Positions 18,247 to 40,867 of a stretch of 64,000 bases of DNA are shown here, in pieces (the stretch's first letter is position 1; each line of letters begins with the position of its first letter). The DNA comes from Nautilia sp. PV-1 (GTDB taxonomy: Bacteria; Campylobacterota; Campylobacteria; Campylobacterales; Nautiliaceae), in contig NZ_CP026530.1 in NCBI RefSeq assembly GCF_004006315.1, forward strand, positions 1,230,501 through 1,294,500. The letters run 5' to 3'. The notes beneath the pieces are model-generated. The model was not told the origin of the DNA. It was given only the letters and a program-made list of their open reading frames with translations, and did no database searches. A program made the translations under genes and the position numbers.

Positions 18247-19290
18247 TTACACCACTTTTATAAATTTATCCTCTTTTTCTTTCACGTTTCCTATAATTTT
18301 TGCAAAAACACCTTCGTTTTGCGCTCTTTTTAGATATTCTTCCGCTTTTTCCTGAGGTAGACTTATTAAAAGTCCTCCGCTTGTCTGGGCATCAAACAGA
18401 ATCATCTGCTCTTCAAAACTCAGCTCTTTAACAAATTCCACATATTTTTCTACAAAAATCTGGTTGTTGTAGCTTCCGGCAGGTATAATACCCATGCTTG
18501 CCTGATTGATCGCTTCTTTAATAAACGGCACTTTTTCAAACTCCACTTCAATTGTGAATTTTTTACCGCTCATTTCATAAAGATGTCCCAAAAGTCCGAA
18601 ACCGGTAACGTCGGTCATGGCGTTTACTCCTATTTCCCTGGCTATAATGCTCGCTTTGAAATTCAGGGTTCTTAATATTTCGGCTACTTCGCTCGCAATT
18701 TCGTCACTTACCAGATCCGCTTTTATAGCGGTTGTAAGAATACCCATTCCGAGAGGTTTTGTAAGTATTATTACGTCATCTTTTTCTAAAGTGTTGTTTC
18801 TTATCATTTTATCAGGATGTACCACTCCCGTCACACTAAGGCCGTACAGCATTTCCGGCGTTTCTATGGTGTGTCCTCCGGCAAGTACTCCTCCGCACTC
18901 TTTTATTTTGTCTTCACCGCCTCTTAAAATCTCTTTTAATATTTCCCTGGAATGATGACAAGAATCAAACCCTACAAGATTAAGTGCCGTTTTAACGTCT
19001 CCTCCCATTGCAAACACGTCGCTTAACGAATTAGCCGCCGCAATCTGTCCGTAAACAAAAGGATCGTCAACCACGGGAGTAATAAAATCAACCGTCTGAA
19101 CAAGCGCAATATCATCTGTTATTTTATAAATGCTCGCATCTTCATTGCCTTCGAATCCCACAAGCAGGTTTTTATGTCTTCCCTCCAAGGTGCATGTTGT
19201 GTCGTTTAGCTCCTCCGGAGCCAGTTTGCCCGCTCAGCCGGCCGCTCTGACATATTTTGTAAGTTTTGCCTCATTGTTTAATTTCAGCAT
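18247..19290 (-). CDS. selD: Selenide, water dikinase SelD, a selenoprotein with in-frame UGA at codon 19
   Basis: 347 residues if the UGA at 19236-19234 is read as selenocysteine; the piece without UGA begins only at a TTG (19188). Upstream of the UGA the frame continues to an ATG at 19290 and encodes KYVRAAG-U-AGKLAPEEL, the conserved SelD N-terminus whose catalytic position (Cys or Sec) is exactly here. The downstream body has the ATP-binding and selenophosphate synthase motifs (EGRHKNLLVGFEGNEDAS; DVTGFGLLGHL). SelD makes selenophosphate for SelA and SelU. It is the last gene of a seven-gene minus-strand operon that starts with yedF. A conventional annotation would truncate it by 34 residues. 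Confidence 0.92.
19208..19236 (-). promoter_or_regulatory. selD: Sec UGA and putative bacterial SECIS hairpin in selD
   Basis: The UGA is at 19236-19234 on the minus strand. After 11 bases, a stem G-GCTCC / GGAGC-T (19222-19217 with 19213-19208; outermost pair is G-U) encloses a GGA loop. The distance is that of bacterial SECIS elements, which recruit SelB directly 3' of the UGA. The loop is shorter than the classic E. coli fdhF loop, so the exact fold is uncertain. Confidence 0.55.
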
Positions 19291-20045: not shown

Positions 20046-20642
20046 TTATTCTCCTGTCAATAAATACTGCGCCCAGTAAGGATATGTAAGCATAATTGCC
20101 ACAAACACAGTACCTATACTTAAATATTTTACATAATTTTTGCAAATGCTGCCTTCACACACAGGCCTTTTTCTTAACCTGAAAAACCAGTTCCACCACA
20201 AATAGCCTATTATTATAACAGCCGCAACCGTAAAATAATCTCTGTACGGAGCAAACACATGTAAAAAAGAAAGGCTTCCCACACTGACTCCGAACATCAA
20301 AAATAAAAGCGGTCCAAGGCAGCATGTACTTGCTAAAATTGCCGTTACGGCAGCTCCGGCTATCAAAGCCCAAAATGATCTGCTCTCTTTCTCGCCTCCG
20401 CTTTGCGGCAGGTCAAGCTCACATTCATAACCTTTTACAATTCTGATAACCGTATTTTTACCTTCTTTTTTTGTATCGACATAAAGCCCCTGATTTTGTG
20501 CAAATCTCTTAACGTTTTGAATAGAGGAGAAAGAGTTTACCTCAACTTCGAGTATCCCCTCTTCCATTGAATCGAGTGCGTCTTTGGTCCTGAGAACCGG
20601 CTCGGGACATGCCAAATCTTTACAGTCGATTCTTTTTACCAT
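20046..20642 (-). CDS. TusA-MerT fusion protein
   Basis: 198 residues with two joined parts. Residues 1-76 are a TusA/SirA domain with the active CPxP motif (Cys12 in ACPEPV; also Cys7). Residues 87-196 are a MerT-like membrane transporter with three helices: the paired Cys107-Cys108 in STCCLGP of helix 1 and a cytoplasmic Cys162/Cys167 pair (VCEGSIC), as in MerT. TusA domains carry sulfur or selenium as a persulfide or selenopersulfide. The fusion places a chalcogen carrier at the inner mouth of an importer that normally relays a soft ion through Cys pairs. The gene overlaps the transglutaminase-like gene by one base. No mercury-resistance gene is nearby. I do not know a characterised homologue with this layout. 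Confidence 0.8.
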   Translation of the reverse strand: MVKRIDCKDLACPEPVLRTKDALDSMEEGILEVEVNSFSSIQNVKRFAQNQGLYVDTKKEGKNTVIRIVKGYECELDLPQSGGEKESRSFWALIAGAAVTAILASTCCLGPLLFLMFGVSVGSLSFLHVFAPYRDYFTVAAVIIIGYLWWNWFFRLRKRPVCEGSICKNYVKYLSIGTVFVAIMLTYPYWAQYLLTGE

Positions 20643-21757
20643 TAAAACAGCTCTTGAGACGTAATTTTATATTCAAAACTTTTCGGTGCGTAATAGTTAA
20701 GAACATCGTCGTTCACTTCAGCATAAGGATATCCGAACATATTAAGCGGATATTGAGTAGGTTTCGGATACAGTACGAAATCTCTCGCATGATTGAATCC
20801 GACCCAGTTCATTTCCCATGAATGCAGATATCTTTTTACAAGTTCCTGAACTTTCGGGTCGTCATATTTTAAACCTTCAACAAGTTCAAGTTTAGTAATA
20901 TCCGCAGGATCCGCCGGAATCCATCCAGCTCCAGGAATATAATATTCGGCTCTACAGTGCTGCCATGTCGTAATAGTGGCGAAACCATTTTTATCACTCT
21001 TACCGAGAGCTTTATCGAAATGGCTTTTACCGAGTCTGATACCGAACACTTCTCTTGCAGGAACACCCGCAGCTCTTACAAGTGCGGTAAACAGTGAACT
21101 TAAATCCGTACATTTACCGCCGAAATATCCGTTTTTGTAAATATCGTCGACATTTTGTTCTTTAACCATTTTTTTAACGTCACCCTTACCGCAGCCGATT
21201 ACTTTAGGATTTCTGAATGTATGAGCCGTACACCAGTAATAAATGGCTTTTACTTTTTCAAATCTGTCGGTTTTTCCTGCGGTAATTTTATCTGCAAGCT
21301 CTTTAATAATACCTGTGGTAGGAATATGAGCAGTCGGTTTTAAAAACTTTTGCGCTTCTTCCGGAATAGGAAGATTTTCTTTACTCGCAGCTTCTATTTT
21401 TTCAATCGGAACGATTCTCGGTTTAGTCTCTATTTCCATTTCAAGATATGCGAGTTTTCTTTTTGGAGATTTGTCCCACTCGGCATAAAACGTATTTGCG
21501 TTGTATTCGTTTTTGCAGTTAATGTCGTAATCATTGTAATTACCAGAAAATTTCAGGAATTTCACTCTTTGATAATCCGCATTGAAAGGCAGAGGATTCC
21601 AAAGTCTTGCAGGATAGTCTTTTTCATAATATTTAATATCAAACGCATAATTAACTTTAAATCTTCTAACCTTGTCTTCATTAGCACTCAATACGCTAGG
21701 CATTGACGCTACAATTCCTAAAGCTGCACTAGTTTTTAAAAATTCTCTTCTTTCCAT
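20642..21757 (-). CDS. Tat-exported transglutaminase-like protein
   Basis: 371 residues. A twin-arginine signal (RREFLKTS, then a hydrophobic stretch ending SVLSA) directs folded export. The C-terminal half has the papain-like transglutaminase triad: Cys in GGKCTDLSSLF, His in QHCRAEYY, Asp in PADPADI. The N-terminal half resembles the beta-rich domain preceding such folds. Family members are proteases, amidases or inactive scaffolds. It lies between the molybdopterin reductase fusion (10-base gap) and the TusA-MerT gene (one-base overlap), which suggests maturation or anchoring of the exported reductase. Its role here is unknown. Confidence 0.75.
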   Translation of the reverse strand: MERREFLKTSAALGIVASMPSVLSANEDKVRRFKVNYAFDIKYYEKDYPARLWNPLPFNADYQRVKFLKFSGNYNDYDINCKNEYNANTFYAEWDKSPKRKLAYLEMEIETKPRIVPIEKIEAASKENLPIPEEAQKFLKPTAHIPTTGIIKELADKITAGKTDRFEKVKAIYYWCTAHTFRNPKVIGCGKGDVKKMVKEQNVDDIYKNGYFGGKCTDLSSLFTALVRAAGVPAREVFGIRLGKSHFDKALGKSDKNGFATITTWQHCRAEYYIPGAGWIPADPADITKLELVEGLKYDDPKVQELVKRYLHSWEMNWVGFNHARDFVLYPKPTQYPLNMFGYPYAEVNDDVLNYYAPKSFEYKITSQELF

Positions 21758-21767
21758 AATAACTCCT

Positions 21768-24700
21768 TTATATTTTTATTATTTTTACTTTTGTCGAACT
21801 GAAATCAGGAATACCGCCTAGTAAATCCAAAAGCGGCAGATCATACATATCTTTATCAAGGTATGTTATAAGATTAGGCGTAATCCCCACACCTCTTGTC
21901 GGATTTGACAATACTTTATCACCTTTGCAAACTTCCGCACCTCCTTTTAATATATTTTTTGCGTTTTTAATTTCAATTTCACTCGCACCGTGCTGCCAGT
22001 GTCCGAAATGATGTGAATATGCAACATTTCCTTCAGTTACAAAGTTTGTAATTTTTACTTTTGTTTTAAGTTTTTTGTTTTGCATATTGTCTATAATAAC
22101 TTCATCTCCTTCTTTTAACCCTAACCGTCTGGCGTCGTCAGGATTGACTTTAAGCTCAAAATCAGGTTCGTAAAACAGAGCTCTTTCATAACATATGGTT
22201 CTTGACTGCGTGTGAAGGGAGGATTTGTATGTTGTAATGTTAAATCCGTCTTCAGGAAGTTTTTTCCCTCTGTATGTCACAAAATCAGGATATTTAAGCC
22301 CACCGTAATATTTCTGGCCGGTTATGGTATTAGTTGATTTGGCAAGTCTTTCGTTATAAAGATAAATTTTTTCAAATCCGAACGTGTAGTTTCCGTTTTT
22401 ATCAAACCAGCTGTTGTTTTTAAACACCCCGCCCCTTGCAACGACCGAACATAAAGCCGTCCACTCGTCTTTGGAAAACATATCTTTATACCTGCTTACA
22501 GGATAGTTTTTCTCAACGGCTGTAACGTCTTCTTTATTTCCTTTAACTCCGGAAGTTAAAGCAAGATTATAAATTCCCCTTAAATAATAATCTTCCGCTT
22601 TATACAGAGGATAATAATTCCCGTTTTTATCTTTAATCGCTTTTTCACCGTAACCCGGAAGATTCAGTTTTAAAGCCAGATCAATTAAAAACGTCTCAAG
22701 ACAGATAGGTCTATTGTTTATTTTCGGAGTCTGAGCATCTATAAGAGGCGTTCTCACTCCAGTAAAATGCCCTCCGGGCGCATGAGGAGTTAAAAATCCG
22801 TACTGCCCTTCCATATAGGTAATATCCGGAATAATATAATCAGCATAAATATTCGTCTCGTTCACGGTTGTATCTATTGATACGAAAAGAGGCACTTTGT
22901 TGTGGTCTTTAAGAGTCTGCTTAAACCTGTATCCTCCCGGCATTGAATATATAAAATCGCTGAAATACGCAAACACTATTTTTGCAGGATACGGGTATTT
23001 TAAATCAATTCCGCTTATGGCGGAAACGCTTAATCCCCCTTTTGTAAATTCAAACCAAGGAAGTTTGGACGGATATCCGTGTTTTTTAAATTCGGACGAA
23101 TGTTCGTATTTTGCTTTCTCCCTGGAAATTTTAACGCCCTTCGGTTTAAGCATTCCGTCGAATTTTTTAAGGTCGTATTTACCTTCTCTCCATTTGCCGG
23201 CACCCTTGCCTTTACCTAAATAACCGCCTTTGCGGTTTACGTTTCCGACAAGAGCGTTTAATATCGCAATCGCAAAGCTTGAATACGCCCCGCCGACGTA
23301 ATTTCCTCCGCCGTGATATGCAAACGCCACGCTTTTCGGAGCGTTTTGCCAAAATTCTCTGGCAAGCGTTTCTATTTCGCTTACATCGATACCGCACTCT
23401 TTTGAATAAAATTCAAGCGAGTGTCTGTTTACTTCCTTTTGAAGCAGTGAAAATACGCTTTCACACTTAAACCCTTCTATTTCTCCTTTCCAGAAAAGTT
23501 CAGGATTATCAGCATCCGAAGCAAATACAGGCTTTGCATTTTGTATAACAATCTCTTCATCAGAGCCTTTTTTCAAATGTGACGCTTTTAATATCTCACC
23601 CTCGTGTTCACCATCCGTAATTACCAGATGAGCCGCGTTTGAATATGTTTTTCTTCCGGCTTTTTCAGCACTTTTTTGCGAAGCGAGTTTTAAAAATTTT
23701 TCATCATACCAGCCGTTTTTCAGCATTATCTTAATCATAGCCATTGCAAGAGCTCCGTCTTTTGTAGGTTTTACCGGCACCCATCTGTGAGCCACATGCA
23801 CGGCTTTAGGAGCTTTAGGGTCTACTAAAACTATTTTAAGCTCGCCGTTTGCAACCCTTCTCGCAATCATTGCACCTGAAGTCGCAACCCCCGGCTGAAG
23901 TGCCGAATAGATGTTGGCACCGAAAATCAGCATATATTTTGAATTTTCAAAATCGGCTTTAAGTTCCACTTCCCTGCCGTCTGTGAAAATATAATTGCCC
24001 ATCCTAAACCCTATACCGCATATATCCGTATGTCCGATATAGTTTTTAGAACCTACTGAATTTAAAAACCATCTTTTAATAAAATGGCTCCTTCCTCCCT
24101 GGGATCTCCCGGTAAACCACACAAACTGGTTTCTTTTAGGTCCTAGTTCCGGAGCGTTTTTATCAATAGGCTCGTCGCTTAAAATATCTTTTATTCCCGG
24201 ATAATATCTATCGTCTCCTAAATGTTTGAAGTTTTTGCCTCCGTTGGCTATTTCGTTAATCAAATCTTCCCATTCGATTTCAACAAATTTGCCTTCCCCT
24301 CTTTTTCCGGCTCTTTTGAGAGGTTTTAAAATCCTGTAAGGGTTATTGATATAATCGTTTACCATCTGAGGTTTAGAACACGTTCCCGCTGCATATTTCA
24401 TTGAATCTTTCACAGGCGTGTCATACGTAATCTGATTAAAACTTCTGTTATAAGGATGGTAAGGGTTGCCGTCTACCTGAACTATTTTATTACCGTTAAT
24501 CCCGACTCTAAGCCCGCATCTTGCGTTACAGTCAAGACAAACCGTATGTGCGACCTTTTCCGTTTTAGGTCTGTTTTGTTCGGGATAAACGTAAGGATTG
24601 GAATATTTGGCTCCTTCAACAAACGTATGATGATGCTGAAGCAGAATATATTTAAGTCTTGGATTGTTATTGAGAAGTTCTTTTAAAGCACCCTCGGGTT

Positions 24701-25235
24701 TTTTAAGATTTCCGTATATAATTGCGCCTGCCGGACATACGGCTGCACATCTCGGAATATCCCCTTTTGTTATTCTGCTAAAACACATATCGCATTTTTT
24801 TGCCTTGCCGTCAATAACAATAGCGTCATGCGGACATGAAGCGACACATGGAGGATTGTTTTGGGCGCATGAAGCCTCACATCTGTTTTCATCTATAAGC
24901 ACTACCGAATCTTCGATTTTTATCGCATTATACTGACATGCGTCTTTACAAGGCTTATGAAGACACTCTTTACACATATTTTCAAGTTCAAAATTAAGCC
25001 TTGCATGAGGATAGCTTCCTTCTTCATTTTCACTCATTTTAAAAAGCAGCGTTTTTACAGGCAGGTCTTTTTCAAGCTGACAGGCCGCCATACATGCTTT
25101 ACAGTCCATACATCTGCTTTTGTCGTAAATAAGAACAGGCAAAAAATCATCTTCAACATTAATAGCGGCGCCTTTTAAAGTACTTCCGAGAAAAATACTC
25201 AATCCGCCCAGTTTTAAAAACTCTCTTCTTTTCAT
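21768..25235 (-). CDS. Tat-exported fusion of a four-cluster ferredoxin subunit with a TtrA-like molybdopterin reductase
   Basis: 1155 residues. A Tat signal (MKRREFLKLGG) leads into an NrfC/TtrB-like ferredoxin part (about 30-200): Cys motifs starting CMDCKACMAAC (Cys42, 45, 48, 52), then CKECLHKPCKDAC, CEASCAQNNPPCVASC and CDMCF...CAAVC. A complete molybdopterin catalytic part follows with CLDCNARC (Cys233, 236, 240) for its own 4Fe-4S cluster, FVWFTGRSQGGRS, the presumed Mo/W ligand Cys406 in HTDICGIGF, and the C-terminal dinucleotide-binding fold (HHFGHW). Best family match from memory is tetrathionate reductase TtrA and the related selenate reductases. TtrA and TtrB are normally separate, and a TtrC/NrfD membrane anchor is missing here. 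Substrate unproven; operon context (yedF, selD) points to a selenium or sulfur oxyanion. Confidence 0.8.
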   Translation of the reverse strand: MKRREFLKLGGLSIFLGSTLKGAAINVEDDFLPVLIYDKSRCMDCKACMAACQLEKDLPVKTLLFKMSENEEGSYPHARLNFELENMCKECLHKPCKDACQYNAIKIEDSVVLIDENRCEASCAQNNPPCVASCPHDAIVIDGKAKKCDMCFSRITKGDIPRCAAVCPAGAIIYGNLKKPEGALKELLNNNPRLKYILLQHHHTFVEGAKYSNPYVYPEQNRPKTEKVAHTVCLDCNARCGLRVGINGNKIVQVDGNPYHPYNRSFNQITYDTPVKDSMKYAAGTCSKPQMVNDYINNPYRILKPLKRAGKRGEGKFVEIEWEDLINEIANGGKNFKHLGDDRYYPGIKDILSDEPIDKNAPELGPKRNQFVWFTGRSQGGRSHFIKRWFLNSVGSKNYIGHTDICGIGFRMGNYIFTDGREVELKADFENSKYMLIFGANIYSALQPGVATSGAMIARRVANGELKIVLVDPKAPKAVHVAHRWVPVKPTKDGALAMAMIKIMLKNGWYDEKFLKLASQKSAEKAGRKTYSNAAHLVITDGEHEGEILKASHLKKGSDEEIVIQNAKPVFASDADNPELFWKGEIEGFKCESVFSLLQKEVNRHSLEFYSKECGIDVSEIETLAREFWQNAPKSVAFAYHGGGNYVGGAYSSFAIAILNALVGNVNRKGGYLGKGKGAGKWREGKYDLKKFDGMLKPKGVKISREKAKYEHSSEFKKHGYPSKLPWFEFTKGGLSVSAISGIDLKYPYPAKIVFAYFSDFIYSMPGGYRFKQTLKDHNKVPLFVSIDTTVNETNIYADYIIPDITYMEGQYGFLTPHAPGGHFTGVRTPLIDAQTPKINNRPICLETFLIDLALKLNLPGYGEKAIKDKNGNYYPLYKAEDYYLRGIYNLALTSGVKGNKEDVTAVEKNYPVSRYKDMFSKDEWTALCSVVARGGVFKNNSWFDKNGNYTFGFEKIYLYNERLAKSTNTITGQKYYGGLKYPDFVTYRGKKLPEDGFNITTYKSSLHTQSRTICYERALFYEPDFELKVNPDDARRLGLKEGDEVIIDNMQNKKLKTKVKITNFVTEGNVAYSHHFGHWQHGASEIEIKNAKNILKGGAEVCKGDKVLSNPTRGVGITPNLITYLDKDMYDLPLLDLLGGIPDFSSTKVKIIKI

Positions 25236-25244
25236 AGCACCTCT

Positions 25245-25841
25245 TTATAAACTTATGACTTCGGTATGTAAAAGCATATCCATGGTATCGTAGGCATTGC
25301 CGATTTCGCCGACTTTTAAATCTTCTGCGGGAATATTGTAATGATTCATACAAAGTCCACATGAATAGATCTTTACACCTCTTTTTTCAAATTCTTTAAG
25401 TATTTCTATTACTTCGGCATTTTCTTCTTTTGTGGTTAAAAAAACGCCTTCGTTAACAAAAATAATATTCTTAGGCAGTTTTTTAAATTCTAGCGTTGTT
25501 TTTAAAAAGCCTTTCATTAAAACGCTTCCGAGTTCTCCGTTTCCGACTTTATCCGTTTTTATAAACAGTGATTTGTTTAAAAATTTTTCTTCGTCTTCGT
25601 CATCCGCAACTATCGCACATTCATAACCTTTAACAATGGTTATCAGCGTATCGCCGTTATCCAGTTCTTCAACTTTGGGTTCAAATCCGTTATTCATTGC
25701 GTATCTTTTCACATTTTGCACTGAAGATACGGAATTAACCAATACTTCCAGAATTCCCTCATCCATTTCTTCAAGCGCTTTTTTGGTTTCAAGCACAGGC
25801 TGAGGGCATGCCATATTACGGCAGTCAATCTTTTTATTCAT
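25245..25841 (-). CDS. yedF: YedF-type selenium metabolism protein (TusA plus DsrE domains)
   Basis: 198 residues. The N-terminal TusA/SirA domain has ACPQPV (Cys12, and Cys7) and the C-terminal DsrE-like domain has the Cys pair in SCGLCMNHYN. This two-domain form is the YedF family, which comparative genomics ties to selenium use in many bacteria. Its N-terminal domain is clearly related to that of the TusA-MerT protein (shared GILEVxVNSxSSxQNVKR). It is the first gene of the operon, followed after nine bases by the reductase fusion. It probably receives and passes selenium in the cytoplasm; the exact step is not settled. Confidence 0.8.
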   Translation of the reverse strand: MNKKIDCRNMACPQPVLETKKALEEMDEGILEVLVNSVSSVQNVKRYAMNNGFEPKVEELDNGDTLITIVKGYECAIVADDEDEEKFLNKSLFIKTDKVGNGELGSVLMKGFLKTTLEFKKLPKNIIFVNEGVFLTTKEENAEVIEILKEFEKRGVKIYSCGLCMNHYNIPAEDLKVGEIGNAYDTMDMLLHTEVISL

Positions 25842-25957
25842 AATACTCTCCTTTGGTTTTAAAAAGATTTAAATATAAAACACCCCGGTAATGAGAATTT
25901 TATGCATGTAAAATAACAACAGGTTAATTAAAAATTAAGAATTTGCTTGAAGTACAT

Positions 25958-26029
25958 CATGAAGCTATTAGAAGTTGCTGCTTCATGTGTGTCTCTGAAC
26001 CTCAGAGCTTACAGCGTCAGAGAATTATA
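25958..26029 (-). promoter_or_regulatory. Structured leader or small RNA and a TATAAT box upstream of the yedF-selD operon
   Basis: The 279-base gap between yedF and fdhD holds several perfect stems: CATGAAGC/GCTTCATG (25958-25965, 25980-25987), CTCTGA/TCAGAG (25993-25998, 26002-26007) and the competing TCTCTGA/TCAGAGA (25992-25998, 26017-26023). On the minus strand TATAAT at 26029-26024 could start a leader of about 175 bases for the selenium operon. If transcription begins close to 26017, the outermost pairing would be lost, so the fold is uncertain. I do not recognise a known riboswitch or a tRNA here. Confidence 0.4.
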
Positions 26030-26090
26030 GCTCACTATTCTTAAAAATCTCTTAAACTTTTAAAAAATCAAAAATATATTATCCGTTTTT

Positions 26091-26099
26091 TGATATCAT
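26091..26099 (+). promoter_or_regulatory. fdhD: Extended -10 promoter for fdhD
   Basis: TGA-TATCAT, an extended -10 element 22 bases before the fdhD ATG, implies a very short leader. It means the structured segment at 25958-26023 is upstream of, not inside, the fdhD transcript. Confidence 0.4.
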
Positions 26100-26120
26100 A
26101 TAAAAAACAAAAGGCCTGCT

Positions 26121-26912
26121 ATGGAACCGGTGTATAAATTTAAAATAAAAAAAGTCAAAAACGGAAAAAAATTCGATTTTGAAGACACTTTGATCAGGGA
26201 AATAAGAACCGACATACATATAAACGGACAAAAAACCGTATCAATGATGGCGACACCAGTAGATCTCGAAGCTTTGGCCGTGGGATACCTGATAAGCGAA
26301 GGAATAATAAGCTCATTTAACGATATTGAAAAAATCGAACTTAAAAACGACGGACTTATTATTGACGTTACGGCAAAAGCCGACACCAAAAAAATAGAAA
26401 AACTGAACGAAGAAGCCATAATAGTTAGCGGATGCGGCAAAAGCGTCACATCAAACATAGATATCGATCCTTCGAAAATAGAAGCTGAAAAAATCGATTC
26501 CGACATTACAATAAAAATTTCCGATATTTCAAAACAGATGGGCGAATTTTACAAATCATGTCCTTTGTATGAAAAAACAGGATGCGTCCACACGGCAAGA
26601 CTCTATTTTGACGAACACACATATTTCGATGCCGAAGACATAGCACAGCATTCAACCGTAGACAAGGCTGTCGGAAAGGCGATAATTGCGGGATACTCTC
26701 CCAAAAACGGTATAATGATGGTAAGCGGAAGGCTTAGCAGCGAAATGGTAGTCAAAGCCGTTATGCATAAAATACCGATATTGATATCAAGAACAGCTAC
26801 AACATGCCTCGGTGCAAAAATAGCAGATACGTTCGGCCTAACGCTTGTAGGTTTCGCAAGAGGCGAAAGAATGAACATATACACCCATGACTGGAGAATT
26901 GAAGAAGGATAA
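26121..26912 (+). CDS. fdhD: FdhD formate dehydrogenase sulfurtransferase
   Basis: 263 residues matching FdhD, which transfers sulfur to the molybdenum or tungsten bis-MGD cofactor before insertion into formate dehydrogenase. Visible family segments are EALAVGYLISEGII, VSGCGKS (Cys105, the reactive Cys region; many FdhD have CxxC here, only one Cys is present), GCVHTARLY, AVGKAIIAGY and GFARGERMNIYT. It starts an operon with a ModE-like regulator (three-base gap) and moeA. The clients are probably the formate dehydrogenases at 38-41 kb and 46-48 kb. Confidence 0.9.
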   Translation: MEPVYKFKIKKVKNGKKFDFEDTLIREIRTDIHINGQKTVSMMATPVDLEALAVGYLISEGIISSFNDIEKIELKNDGLIIDVTAKADTKKIEKLNEEAIIVSGCGKSVTSNIDIDPSKIEAEKIDSDITIKISDISKQMGEFYKSCPLYEKTGCVHTARLYFDEHTYFDAEDIAQHSTVDKAVGKAIIAGYSPKNGIMMVSGRLSSEMVVKAVMHKIPILISRTATTCLGAKIADTFGLTLVGFARGERMNIYTHDWRIEEG

Positions 26913-38041: not shown

Positions 38042-40867
38042 ATGAGCTCACTTGAAAAAATGAATCCAAAAGTGGGTAGAAGGGCCTTTTTAAAAATGGC
38101 AGCACTATCCGGAGTTGCAGGGGCTACAATGCTCAGCGCAGCACCGGCACTTAGAAATGCTACCGATGAAGAGATCAAAGACCCTTACCCGGGAAGTAAA
38201 AAAGTTAAAACAGTATGTACTACCTGTTCGGTAGGTTGCGGAATTATTGCAGAAGTTTATAACGGCGTGTGGGTAAGACAGGAAGTCGCTCAAGACCATC
38301 CAATCAGCCACGGAAGCCACTGCTGTAAAGGTATAGATTCAATCGATTATATAAGAACTGAAAAAAGGGTAAAACACCCTCTTAAAAAAGTAAACGGAAA
38401 ATGGAAAAGAATAAGCTGGGAAGAAGCTATTAACGAAATTAGCGAAAAAATGCTTCAAATCAGAAAAGAAAGCGGACCGGATGCCGCAATGTTCCTCGGA
38501 AGTGCGAAAATGAGCACAGAGCAGGCATATTATTTCAGAAAATTTGCCGCAATGTGGGGAACTAACAATATAGATCACCAAGCGCGGATCTGACACAGCG
38601 CAACAGTCGCGGGGGTCGCGAATACATGGGGTTACGGCGCAATGACAAACCACCTTGGAGATATCCAAAATTCTAAAGCAATTATTATATTCGGTGCAAA
38701 TCCTGCTGTTAACCATCCTGTCGGATTTAAACATATATTAAAAGCAAAAGAAAGAAACAATGCAGTTTTAATCGTGGTAGATCCTAGATATACCAAAACA
38801 GCTGCAAAAGCGGATATTTATGCAAGAATAAGACCTGGTACGGATATTCCTTTTATGTACGGTATGCTTCATCTGATCTTCAAAAACGGATGGCACGATC
38901 CTGATTACATCAAAAACAGAGTATTCGGAATGGATCATGTTATTAAAGAAGCCAAAAAATGGACACCTGAAAAAGTTGCCGACGTTACAGGAGTTCCTGC
39001 GGACTTAATTTATAAAATAGCAAAAGTTTATGCTACAAACAAACCTGGAACACTTCTTTGGGCAATGGGATTGACTCAGCACTCAATAGGTTCATCCAAT
39101 ACAAGAATGGCACCTATACTTCAGTTAGCACTTGGAAACATGGGTAAATTCGGAGGAGGATGTAATATTTTAAGAGGTCATGACAACGTACAGGGTGCAA
39201 CTGACATGTGCTGTCTGTCACATACACTGCCTGGATATTACGGTTTAAGTGAAGGCAGCTGGAAATATTTTGCTCATAACTGGGGTGTTGATTTTAAATG
39301 GCTTCAAAACAGATTTGCCGCTAAAAAATGGATGCATACAAAAGGCTTCACATTGGCAAAATGGTGGCAGGGAGTATTACAGGAAGAAAAAATATACTCA
39401 ACTTCACCGATAAGAGCTTTATGGGTACAGGGTAACGGTATTACTTCAATTTCTCAAACTGCAAAAGTACAACAGGCACTTGATAAACTTGATTTATTGG
39501 TAATTGCCGAACCTTTTGCAAACGAAGCTGCCGTTATTACCAACAAAAAAGACAATGTTTATATCCTTCCGACTGCCAGCCAGTTCGAATGTGAAGGAAG
39601 CGTAACCGCTACAAACAGGACGGCTCAATGGAGAAGCAAAGTAGTTGATCCTTTATATGAAAGTAAAACAGATGAAGACATTATGTTTACCTTCGCTAAG
39701 AAATTCGGCTTTTACGATGAATTCGTAAGAGGCATGATGATGGGCGTAAAAGACGGAAAAGCGGTTAAAGTTAAAAACAGCTTTAAATGGCCTGAAGACG
39801 CAACCAGAGAAATAGCAAGAATTATAAAAACCATAGGTCTTACCGGATGGACTCCTGAAAGACTTAAAAAACATCAGCAAAACTGGCATATGTTTGACGA
39901 AGTCACACTTAAAGGTATCGGACCAATGAAAGGCGAATACTACGGACTTCCATGGCCATGCTGGACTGAAACTCACAGCGGAAGCCCTGTACTGTACAAC
40001 ATTGATATCCCTGTAAGCGAAGGAGGTATGGGATTCAGAGCCAGATTCGGTACAGAATATAAAGGTGAAAACCTCTTAGCCGGACCTAGAGCGACAATCA
40101 AAGGAGCTAAAGTAAGAGGAGGATACCCTGAACTTACAAAAGAAAATATTGAAAAAGTTCTCGGAATTAAACTTTCACCTCATGAAAAAGCTATTATGGG
40201 TAAAAACTGGAAAGTGGATTTAAGCGGACTTATCGCAAAATACGCACTTAAAGCAGGCGTAGCGCCTTACGGTAACGCAAAAGCCAGAGCATACGTATGG
40301 ACATTCCCTGATAAAATACCTCTACACAGAGAACCGCTCCATACACCAAGATATGATTTGGCTAAAAAATATCCGACTTATCCTGATAAAAAAGATCAGT
40401 ATAGAGTTGATACAAAATTTGCATCAATTCAAAAAACAGACTGGGCAAAAGAGTTCCCTATCATTCTTACAACAGGCCGTCTTGTAATGTACAGCGGTGC
40501 CGGTCTCATCGAAAGAGAAAGCAAATACCTCTCAGCTCTTCAGCCTGATATGTTTGCAAGTATCAATCCGGAACTTGCTTATAAACACGGTATCAATGAC
40601 GGGGATATGATATGGATTCATGCACCTGAAGGCACTAAAATAAAAGTAAAAGCAAGATTTACCTATGCAGTGTCACCGGACAGAATCTTCTTGCCGTTCC
40701 ACTGGGCCGGAATTATGCAGGGCGTTGATATGAGTGCAAATTATCCGGAAGACACAAAACCGTATACAATAGGCGAATCAGCCAATACGGTGGCAAACTA
40801 CGGATATGACATTGTTACCCAGATTCCTGAAACAAAAGCGGGCTTAGTCCGTATTGAAAAAGCGTAA
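38042..40867 (+). CDS. fdhA: Formate dehydrogenase catalytic subunit FdhA, selenocysteine-containing
   Basis: 941 residues when the in-frame UGA at 38591-38593 is read as Sec184. The context NIDHQARI-U-HSATVAG is the conserved active site of Sec formate dehydrogenases (Sec binds Mo/W, next to the catalytic His). A Tat signal (GRRAFLKMAALSG) precedes the CTTCSVGC...C 4Fe-4S motif near residues 60-90. The frame before and after the UGA is intact, so this is not a frameshift. A naive caller would report two genes (38042-38593 and 38642-40867). It oxidises periplasmic formate and passes electrons through FdhB and FdhC to menaquinone. Confidence 0.95.
38591..38621 (+). promoter_or_regulatory. fdhA: Sec UGA and SECIS hairpin in fdhA
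   Basis: UGA at 38591-38593; 13 bases later a stem TCGCG / CGCGA (38607-38611 with 38617-38621) encloses loop GGGGT. Position and G/U-containing loop resemble the E. coli fdhF SECIS, the SelB-binding signal. It is locally much more GC-rich than the surrounding gene. Confidence 0.7.

Follow-up and report, generated by a model that had tools for sequence, protein, structure and literature searches.

Does the DNA between yedF and fdhD in Nautilia sp. PV-1 encode a regulatory RNA, and what would such an RNA respond to? The genome comprises 1.79 Mb, and the window, that is, the whole stretch of 64,000 nucleotides that was analysed, covers its positions 1230501-1294500. The gap at 25842-26120 of the window lies between two divergent transcripts, one headed by yedF on the minus strand and the other comprising, on the plus strand, fdhD, a ModE-like gene and a moeA-like gene (the latter so called from reading its protein). 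The regulatory network of selenium metabolism was called "not clear" in the accessible portion of a comparative study (PMC5322559). The segment upstream of yedF is a real, conserved leader RNA, probably with a regulatory role, and the presence of similar hairpins before selenium-handling genes in many relatives suggests that this RNA tunes the uptake and use of selenium.

The leader and the operon behind it

Table 1. Coordinates (window positions) of the leader elements and of the genes on their 3' side.
Feature	Position	Strand	Remarks
-10 box TATAAT	26029-26024	minus	letters checked; start expected at ~26016-26018 (predicted)
Conserved GCUGU near the leader 5' end	26011..26015	minus	invariant in 6 leaders of alignment A1
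P2, SECIS-like hairpin	25993..26007	minus	CUCUGA-GGU-UCAGAG, 6 bp
P3, hairpin	25958..25987	minus	CAUGAAGC-(14 nt)-GCUUCAUG; 8-bp inverted repeat 25958-25965/25980-25987
Conserved UGUUGUUA 3' of P3	25914..25921	minus	GUUGUU invariant in 6 leaders; also in G003, G008
yedF, first gene 3' of the leader	25245..25841	minus	TIGR03527, 194 bits, cut-off 110
TtrA-like molybdoenzyme	21768..25235	minus	1155 aa; N-terminal ferredoxin-like part; best NCBIfam match TtrA, under its cut-off
Tat-signal transglutaminase-like protein	20642..21757	minus	PF01841
TusA-MerT fusion protein	20046..20642	minus	TusA/YedF-like domain + MerT; PF01206 + PF02411
selD	18247..19290	minus	in-frame TGA 19236-19234; coding SECIS ~19205-19225

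A preliminary description of this DNA had presented the segment as the leader of a yedF-selD operon. The leader of a selenium operon is retained, but yedF and selD are not neighbours: an interval of ~6 kb separates them and holds further genes of the minus strand, of which that of the TtrA-like molybdoenzyme is closest to yedF, and small genes are found between the TusA-MerT fusion and selD. In selD the in-frame TGA encodes Sec and the coding SECIS reads GGCUCC-GGA-GGAGCU; a plain list of open reading frames shortens this gene to 313 aa. FdhA, at 38072-38624, also contains an in-frame TGA, with the SECIS hairpin UCGCG-GGGGU-CGCGA at 38604-38624.

The minus-strand TATAAT on which the same description relied is in place and makes a plausible -10 box, with TATAAT-like boxes at a comparable distance in relatives; a good -35 partner was not found for it, and a consensus scan of 25700-26300 gave no sigma-70-type promoter. 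Two of the stems that had been listed, CTCTGA (25993-25998) with TCAGAG (26002-26007) and an eight-base stem at 25958-25987, are present in the letters and conserved in relatives (P2 and P3, respectively), and the proposed comparison of the gap in related genomes bears them out, with compensatory changes in both. The SECIS-type loop of P2 and the similar hairpins before other selenium genes had been overlooked. CTCTGA had also been said to pair with TCAGAGA at 26017-26023. These letters are in place as well; the arm lies directly behind the TATAAT, so that the transcript should begin beyond most of it, and its counterparts in G002 and G014 show no complementarity to P2. This mutually exclusive stem was rejected for its position after the -10 box and its lack of conservation. 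What remains of the idea of a regulated leader with competing stems is a regulated selenium leader with two stems, and not that specific competing pair. Better candidates for an alternative fold are offered by GCAGC, on the loop side of P3: the six closest Nautiliaceae leaders allow it to pair with GCUGU on the 5' side or, as judged by eye, with UGUUGU on the 3' side. A pseudoknot between GCAGCA of P3 and UGUUGU is plausible in six leaders and weak in G004 and G008.

The fold energy of 25842-26030 is unremarkable (z -1.94; 7 of 200 shuffles at least as good), the trimmed window leader has a z of -0.76, and the z-scores of single leaders are mostly unremarkable, the only exceptions being G002 (z -4.19) and L294 (z -2.08). 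Intrinsic terminators or attenuators, scored as a G+C-rich hairpin plus a T run, gave 0 sites in 25700-26300. In agreement with the earlier statement that no riboswitch family is recognised, Rfam 15 returned nothing credible in the window at gathering or lax thresholds, and on 12 leader loci no leader family at the gathering score, with only a tRNA being found. A degenerate tRNA was considered and discarded, since ARAGORN finds none in the window.

Conservation of the hairpin in Nautiliaceae and across the phylum

Five further genomes of the family Nautiliaceae share a common order of elements, namely -10 box, GCUGU, P2, ACA(C)AUGAAGCAGC, P3 and UGUUGUU. The leader is recognisable but altered in G003, G004 and G008, and in the last two it precedes a double-cubane-type gene ~2 kb upstream of yedF. 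R1, a covariance model built from six leaders, matches all nine family genomes with a strong yedF match (eight at E <= 8.6e-6 and G003 at 0.0027), six of which supplied its training sequences; in the other 12 family genomes it gave three weak matches (E 0.0115 or worse). When the leaders are fitted to the R1 structure (alignment A6, 24 rows, one of them an antisense low-scoring match in L251), changes on both sides are observed in five of the six pairs of P2, the sixth never varying, and in six of the eight pairs of P3, with 43 both-side-changed cells against 8.4 in shuffled data. Alignment A5, which omits G313, G250 and the duplicate G039, entered none of the counts. The yedF leader of G003 (L009, 1375-1430) contains two tandem SECIS-like hairpins, with a sequence upstream that is, by resemblance alone, similar to tRNA-Sec.

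Beyond the family, yedF scored above its cut-off in 143 of 298 genomes, and the upstream DNA was read in 70 of these. Within 150 nt upstream of yedF, 22 of the 70 have a GGN triloop on a stem of at least 6 bp, compared with a mean of 0.67 and a maximum of 4 in 200 shuffles; two of the 22 (f14/g43), located far upstream, are taken for chance. This feature is strictly polar, GGN occurring on the sense strand in 22/70 upstream regions and the mirror NCC in 0/70. Under looser rules (5 bp, GGN or GUN loop, last 150 nt), the hairpin appears in several genera of f11, by inference the Campylobacteraceae (g15, 4/8; g28, 2/2; g31, 2/2; g32, 6/7), in nine of ten genomes of f20, the family that contains Sulfurospirillum (the tenth, G087, has it at -150), and also in G084 and G003. 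The same rules pick up 6 of 15 genomes of f14, most of them unconvincing, with only G108 judged leader-like. In f11/g27, no hairpin precedes yedF in any of the 21 genomes read, and many hairpin-less genomes of f11/g27 and f14 possess SelB and a Sec-containing FdhA. In 23 of the yedF hairpins counted as leaders, the loop starts at -30 to -43, measured in G212 to the match start.

In the 38 hairpins of alignment A4, all six P2 pairs present both-side changes and 98.1% of the cells are paired. Both-side-changed cells number 75, against a shuffled mean of 21.9, and 0 of 500 shuffles reach this value; judged by how many pairs carry a change of this kind (6), the alignment does no better than shuffles (232/500). 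It is important to note that pairing was a criterion in selecting the A4 rows, which makes the shuffle test of the 22/70 and the polarity count the fairer tests. The hairpin is preceded by AG in 32 of the 38, and all of them have G as the first base of the loop (column 10), the rows having been chosen for such loops. In a manual count of 80 named-record loci, with the phylum taken from titles (a few of which name none), 21 of the 39 Campylobacterota loci had within the last 180 nt a hairpin with a GGN triloop and a stem of at least 6 bp, versus 0 of 41 others; two of the 39 have only 0 and 2 nt of upstream DNA.

Some variants deserve mention. In L143, L144 and L147 (G284, G217 and G192), yedF is preceded by P2-like stems that have a GG start and are enlarged at the apex, where they apparently contain an inner hairpin. 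Upstream of yedF in L309 and L310 (Campylobacteraceae, Nitratifractor MAGs), CUGCG-UGGAU-CGCAG is followed by AGACAUAC; the former is possibly a P2 form with a 5-nt loop that the triloop count misses.

Hairpins before other selenium-linked genes

Run over the 298 genomes, R1 gave a second match in six f20 genomes (E 0.003-0.043), which corresponds to the leader of a double-cubane-cluster reductase (NF040772, 457 bits, cut-off 350). A total of 23 double-cubane loci were read, and 21 were counted for polarity after leaving out two distant homologues. Among the close homologues, from 21 genomes, the leader contains P2 with a GGN triloop in 17, and the remaining four (G188, G087, G294 and G230) have a similar stem with a 4- or 5-nt loop; for hairpins of at least 5 bp, GGN occurs in 17/21 and the mirror NCC in 1/21. 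GCUGU is also found in most of the double-cubane gene leaders read, and most of them, when trimmed to GCUGU...ACAGC, fold as a three-way junction. The CAGC partner that closes the enclosing helix, P1, is selected by the longest-helix rule in 14 of 17 leaders (six loci were out of this count: the two distant homologues, G190, G145, G004 and G008). P1 is not significant in individual genomes, with shuffle fractions of 0.07-0.68, and 1.0 in G313; the three-way fold is the energy minimum for the trimmed segment only, and in L243 a longer flank yields a minimum without P2. Two Campylobacterales yedF leaders (L308 and L305) fold likewise, one of them with UGCC/GGCA instead. The double-cubane leader of G250 (L250, 2842-2952) carries a perfect 9-bp hairpin between GCUGUU and P2, as if the junction tolerated insertions.

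R3, a model trained on the 38 yedF hairpins alone, gave 28 matches in ten genomes at E <= 0.5, ten of which are training rows. Nine of the 18 non-training matches immediately precede genes that are tied to selenium on independent grounds, namely five double-cubane genes (three placed by coordinates), three transglutaminase-like genes and one yedE (TIGR04112, 486 bits). The three transglutaminase-like genes are homologues of the one in the window operon, whose protein shares 48% identity with that of G039, and a P2-type hairpin of their own stands upstream of the homologues in G030, G039, G232 and G269. Two further matches precede genes whose only link to selenium is the leader, one for a rhodanese lipoprotein and one for a MetN-like ABC protein that stays below the MetN cut-off; the remaining seven look unrelated. 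The f20 double-cubane hairpins closely resemble training rows in sequence and are thus not fully independent. In G269 (contig C1, 2578991-2580751), three leader hairpins (L285, L297 and L300) are found within 2 kb: two tandem double-cubane genes have a leader each, and the third hairpin lies before an opposite-strand MetN-like ABC gene.

In 31 relatives, R3 gave 54 matches at E <= 1. From this search 30 loci were taken, three of which, at contig edges, were skipped; the 27 examined comprise seven training leaders, one yedE/fdhT (G028, NF033796, 596 bits), one transglutaminase-like gene (G030) and 18 that are neither. The yedF hairpins of G002, G004 and G030 were missing from the output, although all of them are in the training set. 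In relatives that lack the leader, the matches are mostly inside or opposite reading frames; single matches mean little. According to an association table in the consulted part of a comparative study (PMC5322559), YedF and YedE are linked with a transglutaminase as well as with 2-hydroxyglutaryl-CoA dehydratase subunits and their activase.

What may read the hairpin

The rules for bacterial SECIS elements, as given in the accessible text of one source (PMC13188914), are a loop of 3-9 nt with a G in the first two positions, often followed by G/U, and a stem of 4-16 bp. With 6 bp and the loop GGU, P2 of the window agrees with both the loop and the stem rules, and the coding SECIS loops of selD and fdh in the phylum are likewise of the GG or GU type. 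Epsilonproteobacterial coding SECIS, according to the part consulted of another source (PMC4607533), are 5-6 bp hairpins with an invariant loop G and in this resemble P2; unlike them, P2 lacks an in-frame UGA, lies outside a reading frame and is unrecognised by R2, a model made from 17 coding SECIS of selD and fdh. That source obtained 131 further candidates from its own model, and the follow-up described in the part consulted is of the protein-coding ones. R2 does not report the window hairpin at E <= 10, and on 40 loci it gave 13 matches, hitting 2 of 20 A4 hairpins and one at the G057 leader. Because the stem sequences in R2 come from two genes and are constrained by the proteins these encode, the negative outcome is not decisive, yet it counts against a SECIS-like P2. 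A SelB-level match (E <= 1e-74) is present in all 33 hairpin genomes included in the SelB draw; this co-occurrence has little power, since among the yedF genomes read only G199, which is also without the hairpin, was noticed to lack such a match.

A hairpin with GU in a 5-nt loop, CCUUCUC-CGUGU-GAGAGGG, precedes E. coli selA, its loop starting at -33. Thanbichler and Bock reportedly found in 2002 that a SECIS-like element in the 5' leader of E. coli selAB is bound by SelB and represses translation, and we take the hairpin before selA to be that SelB-binding element. The yedF leaders are similar in having a GU-loop or related hairpin in a selenium-gene leader with the loop at a comparable distance (-33 versus -30 to -43 in 23 leaders). 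They differ in the genes (yedF, yedE, double-cubane reductase, transglutaminase-like), in the phylum, and in that several operons of some genomes are involved; the Nautiliaceae and double-cubane leaders are, moreover, larger multi-helix RNAs, and the P2 loop of the window starts 160 nt ahead of the yedF start codon.

Taking all this together, we lean towards the reading that the segment is the ~175-nt minus-strand leader of a selenium operon and belongs to a regulon of several families that share a SECIS-like P2 (~6 bp, GGN-type loop) that is probably bound by SelB carrying Sec-tRNA, as reported for E. coli selAB. At the level of sequence, this is favoured by the conservation and compensatory changes of P2, its sense polarity, its leader position, its recurrence before different selenium-linked genes and the absence of a recoding context; by analogy, we infer the involvement of SelB and Sec-tRNA and the sign of control.

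According to a second explanation, rather unlikely in our judgement, the P1/P2/P3 fold is a riboswitch that needs no SelB and itself binds a metabolite of selenium (selenophosphate, selenide or a selenium-charged carrier). The window leader resembles the riboswitch-type leaders of Rfam 15 in being structured, with possible alternative folds, and differs from them in that no family reaches the gathering score in the window or the 12 leader loci. The three-way folds with an enclosing P1 in trimmed double-cubane leaders and two Campylobacterales yedF leaders, the conserved bases beyond P2 (GCUGU, AUGAAGYAGC) and the lack of an Rfam match fit such an aptamer; many members, however, are a 15-nt hairpin beside the ribosome site, too small for one, the loop is of SECIS type, and P1 is poorly conserved in Nautiliaceae. 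It is quite unlikely that a dedicated regulator, an RNA-binding protein other than SelB, recognises P2: the failure of R2 on the leaders and the SelB genomes without an element before yedF would be accounted for in this way, but the loop type is common to P2 and the coding SECIS of the phylum, and the position resembles that of the hairpin before E. coli selA. A DNA operator for a transcription factor acting beside the promoter is very unlikely, despite perfect dyads such as GTCTAA-N3-TTAGAC and their closeness to the -10 box in several leaders; the asymmetric GGN centre keeps to the sense strand upstream of yedF, and stems differ within one genome while the loop is constant, as in G030 (UUCGC-GGU-GCGAA before yedF, AGCUAA-GGU-UUAGCU before the transglutaminase-like gene). 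Finally, a recoding SECIS of an overlooked short selenoprotein frame is most improbable even though the loop type is that of coding SECIS, since no conserved frame was found, a UGA at the recoding distance, 16-37 nt ahead of the loop, occurs in no more than 8 of 38 leaders (two of them at 19-22 nt), none behind an open frame longer than 14 codons, and the UGAs of the window leader, at 18 and 33 nt, lie behind 5 and 1 open codons without a start, outside a recoding context.

If P2 is indeed read by SelB, plentiful selenium would lead SelB, loaded with GTP and Sec-tRNA, to bind it, and the bound hairpin would lower the translation of the selenium-supply genes. In the yedF leaders of Sulfurospirillum and f11, the bound hairpin would be just upstream of the ribosome site. 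In the Nautiliaceae and double-cubane leaders, P2 is predicted to belong to a larger fold that includes P3 and, except in Nautiliaceae, often an enclosing P1 as well; since it is part of such a fold, SelB binding would act there by favouring one fold, and the switch in Nautiliaceae may consist of the choice of GCAGC between GCUGU and UGUUGU. G004 and G008 have a second hairpin, AGGAUAA-GGC-UUAUCCU, with a 3' arm complementary to the ribosome site AGGAUAAG, so the opposite sign of control would be allowed. In these genomes (L094 and L093, respectively), the ribosome site AAGGAUAAG is duplicated upstream inside the GGC-loop hairpin, the 3' arm being an anti-ribosome-site.

On a wider scale, it appears an evenly balanced question whether several families of Campylobacterota place a selenium-supply regulon (transport, reduction, trafficking and selenophosphate synthesis) under one hairpin that borrows the Sec-decoding machinery as a sensor, with a larger multi-helix switch, absent from Rfam, in the Nautiliaceae and double-cubane leaders. 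The leader would then be a variation on an already known SECIS-like leader control, with different genes, another phylum and a larger fold. No description of it was recognised in the literature covered, mostly without subscription papers, which is weak evidence of novelty. Selenium sensing in bacteria is poorly known, and a regulon with a shared hairpin offers a testable sensor, namely Sec-tRNA via SelB. The regulon also points to selenium roles of the double-cubane reductase and the transglutaminase-like protein, and perhaps of the rhodanese lipoprotein and the ABC transporter. In Campylobacter jejuni, FdhTU is involved in the post-transcriptional control of formate dehydrogenase, according to the consulted portion of the source (PMC6682613), and the hairpin regulon may bear on this control.
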